From positions 1 through 33,301 of the forward strand of contig CAJQGR010000037.1 in the NCBI GenBank assembly GCA_905477785.1: a DNA stretch of 33,301 nt. The letters run 5' to 3'. The notes beneath the pieces were generated by a model that was not told where the DNA came from, did not search any database, and saw only the letters and a list, made by a program, of their open reading frames with translations. Shown here in pieces: positions 3,914 to 29,882 of this stretch; the first letter of the stretch is position 1, and every line of letters starts with the position of its first letter. The position numbers were made by a program, and so were the translations under genes. The stretch comes from an uncultured Hellea sp. (GTDB lineage: Bacteria; Pseudomonadota; Alphaproteobacteria; Caulobacterales; Maricaulaceae).

Positions 3914-6355
3914 GTGTTTAAAGAAACATTAGATATCGATTCAGTCGTTTCTTTGGCTTCTGTATTTTTGGTTGTATTACTAATTATTATTTTACTATTA
4001 GTTTTTTTTATTAGTAAAAAAAGGTTACAGTTTTGGAAAATTAAATATCTAAATTTATCCAATAAAAACGAGAAGATTGTTTCTGTATTAGAGTCGTATG
4101 ATGGTCTAACTATTATATGGGAAGGCTATATACCAGATATAAAAAAAGGTTGGGGTCGGCCAAAGCATTATGGTTCGCAGGAGTTTTTTTCTGAGTTAGA
4201 TACTCAAGAAAGCACAGACACACTCGATGGTATACTCCTCGAATTTCTAGATTTCATAGCTGATTTAAATACTTCTAATTCAGACGGCGCAAATGAAACT
4301 TTAAGAATTAATATTGCTAGATTATCCAAAACAGGCCTACCTTTTTCAATAACTATTAGTCTGTCTGATGAGTTGATTATAAAAGTAAGTGGCCGTGTTA
4401 CAGGAAATCAGATTGTCCTTTGGCTAAATAGCAATAAAAATAATACTATTGATTTGAAGTTATTACTTTCATCAAATGCTAATCCAAGTAATCAATTAAA
4501 TTCTGTGACATCAAGCTTTTCAGAAATTCTAAACCGTTCCCCTTTTCCCAAATGGAGGATGACGAGCACAGGTAAGATAACTTGGGTGAATGCAGCTTAT
4601 GTAGATGCAATTGGTGGTGGTAACTCAGCTAAAGTTATTGAAGAGCAAAATCACTTAGACAATAAAATTATTGTTCAAGGAAAAAAAGCATTAGAGACTA
4701 ATAAGTCTTTTACAAATGTAAGAAACATAATCCTGCATGGAAATAATAAGCCTACCTCAATAACTATCTACCCAATTTCAGGGGGAGTCGCAGGTATTGC
4801 GCTTGATGCTGCTGAGGTTGAAAGTTTAAAACAAAATTTATCAACTTACAAAACCGCTCATCACGAAATTCTAAATAAAATGGATGAAGCTGTTGTAATT
4901 TTTGGTTCTGATCAAAAAGTAACTTTTCATAATGCTGCATTTACTTCTCTTTGCTCCATAGACACTGAATGGCTTAAGACTCGGCCTACTCATGGAAGTT
5001 GGCTTGATCATATGAATGAGAAAAATCTTATCCCTGCGCAATCTGATTATGTTTCATGGAAAAATTCAGAGCTGGCGCTTTATAAGATATGGCCTGAAGA
5101 AATGCCTGACGAAATTTGGTCATTACCAGATGGAAAAACATTAAGGCTTGTTAGAATGCGTGACTCACACGGAGGTATTTCGCTACTTTTTTCTGATATG
5201 ACTGACTCAGTAAAATTAAAGACTGAATTGGGAAGGCTAATTAATGTACAAAAAGCAACATTGGACAAATTATCTGAAGGGATAGCTGTTTTTGGAACTG
5301 ATGGTAGATTAAGAATTCACAATGCAGCCTTTGCAACGATATGGAATCTTTCTGGAGATGATTTAGAGAACTCCCCGCGTTTTTCCTATTTAATTAAGTT
5401 ATGCTTACCATTATATAATAATTCAGATTTCTGGAATAGTTTGCGAGCAAGAGCAACAAACCCTAACCCAGAAATTCGACATCAAGACTCTGGGGAAATC
5501 ATACGTTCTGACAGCCGAATTTTTACATGGCTTTCCCGCCCACTTCCTGATGGGGCAACTTTATTGGCATGGGAGGATGTAACAAGCGCTAGAAAGGCAC
5601 AAGCTGCTTTGATAGAGAGAGCAGAAGCATTAGAACAGGCGGATCGAATGAAGTCAGAGTTTGTAGGACATGTCAGCTATCAGTTACGTACACCATTAAC
5701 AACGATTTCTGGATATTCTGAATTTCTTCAAAATAGCGGTGCTGGAGAAATCACAGATAAGCAAAGTGAGTATATTTTTGCAATTCAGAGTGCATCAGAA
5801 GATCTTGCAAAGACAATTAATGATATTCTTGATATTGCTGCTATCGAAGCAAATGTTCTTGACTTAGAATTAAGTGATATTGAGATTCATCAAATACTTG
5901 AGCAGTCTTTGGACTATGTAGCCACTAAGGCAGAGGACACTAAAATCTCACTAGCCTTAAAATCAAACTCTAAAATAGGTAAAATTAGAGGAGATGAAGT
6001 GAAATTAAAGCAGGTGTTGTATAATTTATTAACTAATGCCTTGAGATTTACAAAACCTGGCGGGGTTATTGAGCTTGGGGGAAAGAAAGCTGATGGTGGT
6101 GGAGTCATTATATGGGTTAAAGATGATGGAGTTGGAATACCTACAGACCTACAGCCCCAAGTTTTTAGTTCATTTAAAAGTAGTCGCGGCGGAACCGGTT
6201 TAGGTCTAGCTCTGGTTCAAAGGTTTGTAGAGCGCCATGGAGGCTGGGTAGAGTTAGAGTCAGAAGAGGAAGTGGGCACATGTGTTAGTATATACTTGCC
6301 TAGAGAAGCTCCAGAAGCTCAGTCTCATGTCGAGTTGTTTAATAAATCTATTTAG
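3914..6355 (+). CDS. divL: DivL-like atypical sensor histidine kinase with Tyr at the phospho-acceptor position
   Basis: 813 residues, starting at GTG (an ATG two bases upstream is out of frame). One transmembrane helix (about 12-33) is followed by PAS-like modules (about 205-300, 315-430 and 445-555), a short linker coiled coil (about 560-580), a dimerisation/H-box helix (578-610) and a HATPase domain with N box (N704-N708), G1 (DDGVGIP, 737-743) and G2 (GGTGLGLAL, 759-767). The H box reads HVSYQLRTPL: Tyr589 stands where sensor kinases have the phosphorylated His. Family knowledge: Caulobacter DivL has Tyr550 there and modulates CckA, and thereby CtrA, in response to DivK. Position upstream of tsaE-amgK-murU-addB-addA supports orthology with the alphaproteobacterial locus. 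Involvement in a CckA/CtrA pathway is inferred; none of its partners is in the window. Confidence 0.82.
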   Translation: MFKETLDIDSVVSLASVFLVVLLIIILLLVFFISKKRLQFWKIKYLNLSNKNEKIVSVLESYDGLTIIWEGYIPDIKKGWGRPKHYGSQEFFSELDTQESTDTLDGILLEFLDFIADLNTSNSDGANETLRINIARLSKTGLPFSITISLSDELIIKVSGRVTGNQIVLWLNSNKNNTIDLKLLLSSNANPSNQLNSVTSSFSEILNRSPFPKWRMTSTGKITWVNAAYVDAIGGGNSAKVIEEQNHLDNKIIVQGKKALETNKSFTNVRNIILHGNNKPTSITIYPISGGVAGIALDAAEVESLKQNLSTYKTAHHEILNKMDEAVVIFGSDQKVTFHNAAFTSLCSIDTEWLKTRPTHGSWLDHMNEKNLIPAQSDYVSWKNSELALYKIWPEEMPDEIWSLPDGKTLRLVRMRDSHGGISLLFSDMTDSVKLKTELGRLINVQKATLDKLSEGIAVFGTDGRLRIHNAAFATIWNLSGDDLENSPRFSYLIKLCLPLYNNSDFWNSLRARATNPNPEIRHQDSGEIIRSDSRIFTWLSRPLPDGATLLAWEDVTSARKAQAALIERAEALEQADRMKSEFVGHVSYQLRTPLTTISGYSEFLQNSGAGEITDKQSEYIFAIQSASEDLAKTINDILDIAAIEANVLDLELSDIEIHQILEQSLDYVATKAEDTKISLALKSNSKIGKIRGDEVKLKQVLYNLLTNALRFTKPGGVIELGGKKADGGGVIIWVKDDGVGIPTDLQPQVFSSFKSSRGGTGLGLALVQRFVERHGGWVELESEEEVGTCVSIYLPREAPEAQSHVELFNKSI

Positions 6356-6357
6356 GC

Positions 6358-6675
6358 CTACTGATTTTCTGGTGTGGTGACAGTGATACCATCAAGTTCA
6401 TCATTCATAAGTATCTGACAAGATAGTCTTGAATTATCTTGAACTTCTTCTGCAAAATCTAGCATTGAGTCCTCCATGTCATCTTTAGCTTTTAATTTAC
6501 CTATCCAATCGTCAGATATATAAACATGACATGTTGCGCAGGCGCAAGCCCCGCCACAGTCAGCATCAATGCCTGGTATCATATTCTGTACCGCTGCTTC
6601 CATTACTGATGTTCCATTTTTGGTTTCGACCACCCGATTTGTGCCTTCAGAGTCTATGAAATTAATTTTTGGCAT
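6358..6675 (-). CDS. [2Fe-2S] ferredoxin, adrenodoxin type
   Basis: A 105-residue plant/vertebrate-fold ferredoxin, probably a cytoplasmic one-electron carrier. The four cluster cysteines are C40, C46, C49 and C86, spaced C-x5-C-x2-C-x36-C, as in adrenodoxin/putidaredoxin and the Isc-associated ferredoxins. The C-terminal ETP-like segment (TVTTPENQ) also fits. It is monocistronic here: convergent with divL (two bases between stop codons) and divergent from tsaE 73 bases away. No isc genes or P450 are in the window, so the partner is unknown; candidate roles are Fe-S assembly or supplying a monooxygenase. Confidence 0.93.
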   Translation of the reverse strand: MPKINFIDSEGTNRVVETKNGTSVMEAAVQNMIPGIDADCGGACACATCHVYISDDWIGKLKAKDDMEDSMLDFAEEVQDNSRLSCQILMNDELDGITVTTPENQ

Positions 6676-6748: not shown

Positions 6749-7174
6749 ATGCAAGTTGTACAATTATTAAATGAAAATGATACATTAAACCTTGGGTCTA
6801 AACTTATGGAGATTTTGACCAAAGGTGATGTCTTGGCAATAACAGGAGATTTAGGCGCTGGTAAAACTACACTTGCTCGCGGAATGATACAATCTGAACT
6901 TGGAAATATAGAGGTTCCTTCTCCTACTTATACATTAGTGCAAATATATGATATGAAAAATTTTGAACTATGGCACTGTGATATGTATCGATTAGAATAT
7001 CCTGAAGATGCACATGAACTTGGGTTGTTTGATGCCTTTGAAGATGCTGTTTGTGTAATTGAATGGCCAGAAAAGCTTGGTTCTTTATTACCTAAAAATA
7101 TTTATAATATTTATCTAAAATTCGATGATAATGGGCGATTAGCTTATCTAGAAGGTTTTGAAAAAAATTTATGA
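6749..7174 (+). CDS. tsaE: TsaE, ATPase of the t6A tRNA-modification complex
   Basis: 141 residues from the ATG at 6749. The reading frame is open further upstream, but that extension is antisense to the ferredoxin gene and has no TsaE-like sequence, so I reject it. P-loop GDLGAGKT is at residues 33-40; SPTYTLV and the Trp-containing VIEWPEKLG are typical of TsaE. Family knowledge: TsaE works with TsaB and TsaD to transfer the threonylcarbamoyl group, made by TsaC, to A37 of ANN-decoding tRNAs. A tsaC homologue is encoded at 25291-25872. Its stop overlaps the amgK start by 4 bases (ATGA), implying translational coupling. Confidence 0.93.
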   Translation: MQVVQLLNENDTLNLGSKLMEILTKGDVLAITGDLGAGKTTLARGMIQSELGNIEVPSPTYTLVQIYDMKNFELWHCDMYRLEYPEDAHELGLFDAFEDAVCVIEWPEKLGSLLPKNIYNIYLKFDDNGRLAYLEGFEKNL

Positions 7175-29248: not shown

Positions 29249-29332
29249 CCTAATCCATGTTATGAATTAATAATTAGAGACGTCACTAAAAAGTTAATTG
29301 GTAATAACTATACATGACATCTCATTAAGCTT

Positions 29333-29336
29333 GGAG
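29333..29336 (+). promoter_or_regulatory. Shine-Dalgarno site of the glycine-zipper gene
   Basis: GGAG lies 6 bases before the ATG at 29343 and decides that start against an open frame that begins at a TTG 15 codons upstream. Confidence 0.65.
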
Positions 29337-29342
29337 AAAACT

Positions 29343-29882
29343 ATGAATTCATTTCTTTCTAGAAAAACATTAAAATCTTTAATTGCTTTTTCAGGCGTTT
29401 GTTTTTTATCAACAGCTTCTTATGCTTCTGACTATTCAAGTAGATATTATAGTAATGATTGCTACCAAAATAGTAATGATCAATTAGCAGCAGGATTATT
29501 TGGAGCTCTCGTTGGTGGAGTGGTTGGTTCTCATGTTGCTGGCAGAGGGGACAGGACAGAAGGATCTGTTATTGGTGCAATCTTAGGTGGTACAACAGCT
29601 GCTGCGATTAGCGACAGCAGCCGAACAAGCGGATATAATCCAAATTGTGATAAAACAAGACGTCAAACACGAAACCGTAATTATCGTAACAATCAGTATT
29701 CACGTAACACCAATATAAATAATTTTTCTAACCAACAGGATTATTATTCAGTAAGAAATAGAGTTAATTCAAATAACCGAAGGAATTCTAGAAATACTCG
29801 TGCTCATAGTATCCATCATCATGATTATACGCATTACCATGAACATCATCATGATCATCATCATGATCATCATCATGATTAA
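29343..29882 (+). CDS. Secreted glycine-zipper protein with a histidine-rich tail
   Basis: 179 residues from the ATG at 29343. A Sec signal peptide (about 1-28, possible cleavage after SYA) is followed by C40 and a glycine-zipper hairpin (about 48-90): AAGLFGALVGGVVGSHVAG, then GSVIGAILGGTTAAAIS. This resembles the Rickettsia 17-kDa surface antigen/2TM glycine-zipper group, usually outer-membrane-associated, though no lipobox Cys is at the cleavage site. Residues 95-155 are rich in Asn and Arg, low-complexity and probably disordered. The last 25 residues hold 15 His in HHHD-type repeats, a likely metal-binding or pH-responsive tail. No function is assigned. Convergent with tlyA, 20 bases away. 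Confidence 0.8.
   Translation: MNSFLSRKTLKSLIAFSGVCFLSTASYASDYSSRYYSNDCYQNSNDQLAAGLFGALVGGVVGSHVAGRGDRTEGSVIGAILGGTTAAAISDSSRTSGYNPNCDKTRRQTRNRNYRNNQYSRNTNINNFSNQQDYYSVRNRVNSNNRRNSRNTRAHSIHHHDYTHYHEHHHDHHHDHHHD
29814..29879 (+). repeat. In-frame 12-bp repeats CATCATCATGAT encoding HHHD
   Basis: Three perfect tandem copies occupy 29844-29855, 29856-29867 and 29868-29879, immediately before the stop codon. A fourth identical copy is at 29814-29825, separated by 18 bases. The unit is four codons long, so gain or loss of copies would change the length of the His tail without a frameshift. Confidence 0.9.

Follow-up and report, generated by a model that had tools for sequence, protein, structure and literature searches.

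A DivL orthologue with tyrosine at the phospho-acceptor site in a Hellea clade with a reduced DivK input module

Introduction

A gene with the architecture of a histidine kinase, in which tyrosine stands at the position of the phospho-acceptor histidine, raises the question of what the encoded protein can still do, and of how much of the associated cell-cycle relay persists in the same genome. Such a gene, divL, lies in the window examined here, a stretch of 33,301 nucleotides that forms an entire contig (C37) of a 1.83 Mb assembly (97% complete, 92 contigs; G000 hereafter). In Caulobacter crescentus, DivL is a DivK~P-sensing pseudokinase with neither kinase nor phosphatase activity, and the tyrosine is conserved in DivL across the alphaproteobacteria, with alanine in Magnetospirillum (PMC4211667). 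The DivL kinase module is retained where DivK is retained (PMC2877005), and in alphaproteobacteria without DivK the module (DHp-CA) is usually lost (PMC2877005, PMC4211667). Among named records, Hellea sp. SI034_bin32 comes nearest to the kinase module studied here, at 95% over the module, with other close records from Caulobacterales, Hyphomonadaceae and Maricaulis, and the host thus appears to be a streamlined marine, Hellea-like member of the Caulobacterales. Since this is Caulobacter's own order, a DivL with tyrosine is to be expected. A search of the open-licence literature returned no paper on the cell-cycle genes of this Hellea clade.

Results

The acceptor site and the ATP-binding boxes

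The divL reading frame is uninterrupted and full length (Table 1), and its matches to HisKA and HATPase_c both far exceed the Pfam cut-offs. PAS_7, PAS_4 and PAS_8 were matched N-terminal of DHp-CA, and the predicted model has one long N-terminal helix, then PAS-like folds, then DHp and CA, although its pTM of 0.32 makes the long-range arrangement unreliable. By the Pfam matches and the secondary structure of the model, therefore, the kinase module is preceded by several PAS domains and, N-terminal of these, by a probable membrane helix. The H box reads FVGHVSYQLRTPLTTI, and direct reading of the sequence bears out the description in an earlier note on this DNA, in which the acceptor histidine was said to be replaced by tyrosine (TAT, codon 589) with the N, G1 and G2 boxes intact. 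The N box is NLLTNALRFTKPGG (core NLLTNALRFT), the G1 box KDDGVGI and the G2 box RGGTGLGLAL; the F box, PQVFSSF, is likewise intact. On alignment of the H boxes, the comparison that the note had proposed, Tyr589 pairs with Tyr550 of Caulobacter DivL.

Table 1. Coordinates of the features discussed. Positions are those of the window unless a contig or locus is named.
Feature	Position	Strand	Remarks
divL	3914..6355	+	813 aa from a GTG start; predicted single N-terminal membrane helix, about 3-4 PAS-like domains, DHp and CA
PAS_7 domain adjoining kinase module	5261..5602	+	residues 450-563 (Pfam)
HisKA/DHp domain with DivK-docking residues	5648..5851	+	residues 579-646 (Pfam)
Tyr589 (TAT) at phospho-acceptor His site	5678..5680	+	Tyr550 in Caulobacter DivL
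Gln590 (CAG) at site of usual post-acceptor acidic residue	5681..5683	+	Glu551 in Caulobacter DivL
HATPase_c/CA domain, N, G1, F and G2 boxes intact	5990..6307	+	residues 693-798 (Pfam)
2Fe-2S ferredoxin gene, outside relay	6358..6675	-	adjoins divL in Phenylobacterium too
tsaE	6749..7174	+	141 aa, neighbourhood marker only
Gene for 194-aa His-rich protein	29298..29882	+	
DivJ orthologue, soluble kinase core	G000:C19:4941-5597 (L023)	-	218 aa, shortened ATP lid
Empty pleC site	L024 8870-8914 (G000:C10)		same in G001, G005
divK without following pleD	L028 7602-7979 (G000:C69)		

In HisKA kinases the residue that follows the acceptor histidine is usually acidic and acts as a catalytic base. Active sensor kinases of this kind, such as PleC, DivJ and PdhS, carry the histidine followed by an acidic residue; the present DivL has Tyr-Gln instead, so that the acidic catalytic residue normally present would also be missing, Gln590 taking its place. 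Because both positions are altered, the protein is presumably unable to accept a phosphoryl group at the DHp helix in the usual way.

The tyrosine was found in 30/30 orthologues of the order, those of the sisters G001 (85% identity) and G005 among them. These loci were recovered with the full-length protein as query and without any H-box pattern, and the count is therefore free of pattern bias; chance or sequencing error as the source of the tyrosine was rejected because all 30 share it. When 80 named loci are added, the acceptor site of Caulobacterales DivLs is tyrosine in 108/110, valine in 2/110 and histidine in 0/110, the collections overlapping such that a few records may count twice. The residue after the tyrosine is glutamine in 29 of the 30 orthologues and histidine in the other, whereas Caulobacter and Phenylobacterium DivL have glutamate; the Tyr-Gln count in the named set is biased, since the H box itself was one of the two scan patterns. 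Hence the tyrosine is the family norm and the textbook hallmark of DivL, to which this gene adds one more member, and glutamine after the acceptor site in this lineage is a detail beyond the textbook picture.

Three individual loci may be recorded separately. The orthologues L135 and L149 have valine at the acceptor site (VSVQLRDP), and divL of G020 (L044) has a single in-frame TAG in an otherwise intact gene, with a Tyr-His H box (GHISYHLRTPL) as opposed to Tyr-Gln.

Identity of the protein and constraint on its kinase module

The best solved relative of the kinase module is Caulobacter DivL (4q20; 182 bits, 1.1e-52), the next scoring 116 bits (1.1e-32). The 18 DivL sequences in a tree of kinase cores, 4q20 and Phenylobacterium among them, all group together with a support of 77/96, which is not above 95 on both measures. 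The group is separate from the CckA, PhoR, NtrB and EnvZ-like kinases of this genome and from the PleC and DivJ of its relatives. Sequence, architecture and this placement together confirm that the protein is a DivL.

Residues R592, T596, Y601 and A642 correspond to the docking residues R553, T557, Y562 and A601 of Caulobacter DivL, all four being conserved, while H579 and D595 of the Caulobacter protein are represented by tyrosine and asparagine. In Caulobacter, the H579E exchange disrupts the binding of DivK. Across G000, G001 and G005, identity in the response-regulator docking stretch is 95-100%, and comparison of G000 with G001 gave dN/dS values of 0.029 for DHp, 0.030 for CA, 0.06-0.08 for the PAS region and 0.36 for the N-terminal 200 residues. 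The strongest purifying selection within DivL is thus on the DHp and CA domains, where DivK docks and ATP binds.

The neighbourhood of divL

The earlier note had also placed tsaE directly beside divL and taken the shared locus as an argument for a conserved relay. The two genes are not immediate neighbours, as a ferredoxin gene sits between them (Table 1), and the argument is weak: only 24/80 named loci, mostly of this lineage, have tsaE near divL, and near divL of Phenylobacterium it was not found. Elsewhere in the window, a 194-aa protein with a glycine-zipper-like middle has a very histidine-rich C-terminus (HHHDYTHYHEHHHDHHHDHHHD) and is possibly metal-binding.

The core of the relay

The genome has 10 receiver domains and 11 HATPase_c matches, most of which are accounted for by gyrB and mutL and by paired systems, namely PhoR-PhoB, NtrB-NtrC, NtrY-NtrX, RegB-RegA, EnvZ-OmpR and one further pair (names by sequence reading). 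What remains is CckA, CtrA, CpdR, DivK and DivL, together with a 218-aa orphan kinase. CtrA scored 415 bits (NF045991, cut-off 350). CckA (580 bits, NF046026) and CpdR (151 bits) score below their NCBIfam cut-offs, which are narrow, as are those for DivJ and SpmX, matches to which also fall below; cckA starts near a contig end and the N-terminus of its product may be incomplete. DivK has 125 aa, and its identity to the DivK of the sisters G001 and G005 is 87-88%.

A search of this assembly for ChpT (PF10090) gave no match, although the family was present in 40/40 relatives. In G001 and G005, the neighbours of chpT are pheS, identified by family search as well as by reading, and apaG and dcd, both named by reading alone. 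By family search pheS too is absent from this assembly, despite being present in 14/14 control genomes and 4/4 relatives tested, and the 10-kb chpT region of G005 found no match here in a DNA search conducted without a positive control; it is the pheS search, as opposed to the DNA search alone, that carries weight. Since ChpT is universal among the relatives, pheS is missing as well and the G005 stretch is unmatched, the absence of ChpT is attributed to an assembly gap. Real loss of ChpT was rejected, the universal pheS that adjoins it in relatives being missing too. The genome search that the note had called for therefore recovered CckA, CtrA and DivK, with CpdR in addition, ChpT alone being unseen; with ChpT counted by way of the gap, DivL occurs here in the company of CckA, ChpT, CtrA and DivK.

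The DivK input module

Only G001 and G005 have an orthologue similar in size to the 218-aa orphan kinase; a membrane kinase of about 530-600 aa is what it matches best in the other close relatives. The counterpart in G006 (576 aa) matches the DivJ model from the membrane region through to the end and occupies the same locus, in the order efflux gene, M13 peptidase, kinase, 108-aa gene and MATE, the order from M13 peptidase to MATE being common to G000 and G006. In the kinase-core tree the short kinases group with DivJ (support 88/90) on a long branch. Shared locus and shared clade with full-length DivJ-like kinases thus mark the 218-aa protein as a DivJ, albeit one with no N-terminal region, hence no membrane sensor, and with an incomplete CA domain. 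The ATP-lid region is about 16 columns shorter in all three short forms, and the G1 motif is lost in those of G001 and G005, while the acceptor histidine is kept in all three. A DHp-CA fold is predicted to be retained, and dN/dS values of 0.20-0.32 indicate that these genes are still constrained, if less so than divL.

In G006, G009 and G017, pleC is flanked by a two-component kinase gene on one side and, on the other, by a gene of 241-253 aa that reads as EAL-like and precedes pepN. In G000, G001 and G005 the two-component kinase gene abuts pepN, pleC and the EAL-like gene both being gone. Similarly, divK is followed by pleD in six relatives, but in G000, G001 and G005 no pleD stands beside it. 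Assembly gaps were rejected as the cause of both losses, because in each of the three genomes both empty sites are internal to a contig. SpmX (PF00959, NF051871) was found in the six relatives and in none of G000, G001 and G005, an absence that, in assemblies 97, 92 and 88% complete, is weaker than those of pleC and pleD. In this clade of three genomes, the upstream DivK module is reduced to an eroding, fast-evolving soluble DivJ core. The earlier proposal that the relay is conserved accordingly stands for its core (CckA, CtrA, DivK and CpdR), but not for the DivK input, PleC, PleD, SpmX and the sensor part of DivJ having been lost.

FliF is absent from the Hellea genomes G000, G001, G003, G005, G006, G007 and G009 and present in two other genera of the family, which fits a non-motile genus. 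Loss of the flagellum was rejected as the cause of the stripped input, because the FliF-less G003, G006, G007 and G009 still have full-length DivJ-like kinases as well as SpmX and PleD.

Discussion

Taken as a whole, the data are best explained (with a probability of roughly 0.9) by an orthologue of DivL that is a pseudokinase in a Caulobacter-like CckA switch, in a clade whose DivK input has been stripped. By homology, the role of DivL in that switch is most likely as in Caulobacter. The membrane-bound, PAS-containing protein would act as a pseudo-histidine-kinase whose DHp helix does not accept phosphoryl groups in the normal manner; unbound, it would promote CckA kinase activity and so phosphorylation of CtrA via ChpT, and docking of DivK~P on the DHp domain would turn CckA towards phosphatase activity. 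As no PleC, PleD or SpmX was found and DivJ is stripped in the clade, the DivK~P would have to come from the DivJ remnant or another source, without the usual polar kinase/phosphatase pair. Counted against this explanation were the support of the DivL clade, the substitutions at the positions of H579 and D595, and ChpT being unseen in the assembly, for which the gap is the explanation.

The reduced input could also mean that DivL has become independent of DivK in this lineage, serving as a constitutive activator of CckA or a PAS-based sensor, with DivK a passive leftover. The absence of PleC, PleD and SpmX is consistent with this, as is a DivJ core that has no sensor, a shortened ATP lid and, in two of three species, no G1 motif. 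Nevertheless DivK is well conserved between G000 and its two sisters, as is the docking surface of DivL, and true loss of DivK usually brings loss of the DivL DHp-CA module (PMC2877005, PMC4211667), rendering DivK independence rather doubtful. Indeed, that DivK and the kinase module of DivL have been kept together suggests that contact between the two proteins is still important. We lean towards a reading, held with some reserve, in which this small-genome Hellea clade runs the DivL-DivK-CckA-CtrA core without the polar antagonists by which it is defined in Caulobacter (PleC, PleD and SpmX being lost) and with a soluble, eroding DivJ that may be becoming a second pseudokinase, such that DivL would read a non-polarised DivK signal in a state transitional towards the DivK-less Rhodobacterales systems.

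Under the first proposal made for Caulobacter DivL, the protein would still be an active kinase, autophosphorylating Tyr589 and acting on CtrA or DivK. The ATP-binding boxes are indeed intact and strongly constrained, and the PDB title of 4q20 still reads tyrosine kinase. However, the usual acidic catalytic base is replaced by glutamine or, in one orthologue, histidine, and even Caulobacter DivL, which has glutamate there, shows no autokinase activity and binds ATP weakly (PMC4211667); activity of this kind is accordingly very improbable. The least probable account, in which the tyrosine is one lesion among many in a decaying kinase dispensable to a reduced genome with an eroding DivJ partner, is refuted by the selection estimate (DHp dN/dS 0.03), and the full-length frame and the same tyrosine across the order also speak against it.

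The tyrosine as such is known, and only the stripped DivK input is of real interest. The three related genomes constitute a natural experiment: the presumed driver of DivL-CckA control, kinase/phosphatase asymmetry, has been lost, and yet no part of DivL is more strongly constrained than its pseudokinase domain. The clade therefore makes it possible to test whether DivL depends on a polar DivJ and PleC at all, or just on a level of DivK~P.

Comparison with known systems

The closest parallel is DivL of Caulobacter crescentus (4q20; PMC4211667), with which the present protein shares the membrane helix, PAS domains, DHp-CA module, tyrosine at the acceptor site and Arg/Thr/Tyr/Ala docking residues, as well as the company of DivK, CckA and CtrA. 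It differs in having glutamine for glutamate after the tyrosine, tyrosine for H579 and asparagine for D595, and in a host without PleC, PleD or SpmX and with DivJ only as a core. Phenylobacterium, of the same family as Caulobacter, shares the ferredoxin gene next to divL. DivJ and PleC of other Hellea-like genomes (L240, L242) are also HisKA/HATPase_c kinases, but have the acceptor histidine (SHELRTPLN) and group apart from DivL in the kinase-core tree. In the Rhodobacterales with a DivL that lacks the kinase module (cluster B of PMC2877005), the lineage has likewise lost DivJ and PleC; there, however, DivK and the DivL kinase module are gone, whereas both are kept here, and relative to that cluster the Hellea clade is an intermediate state.
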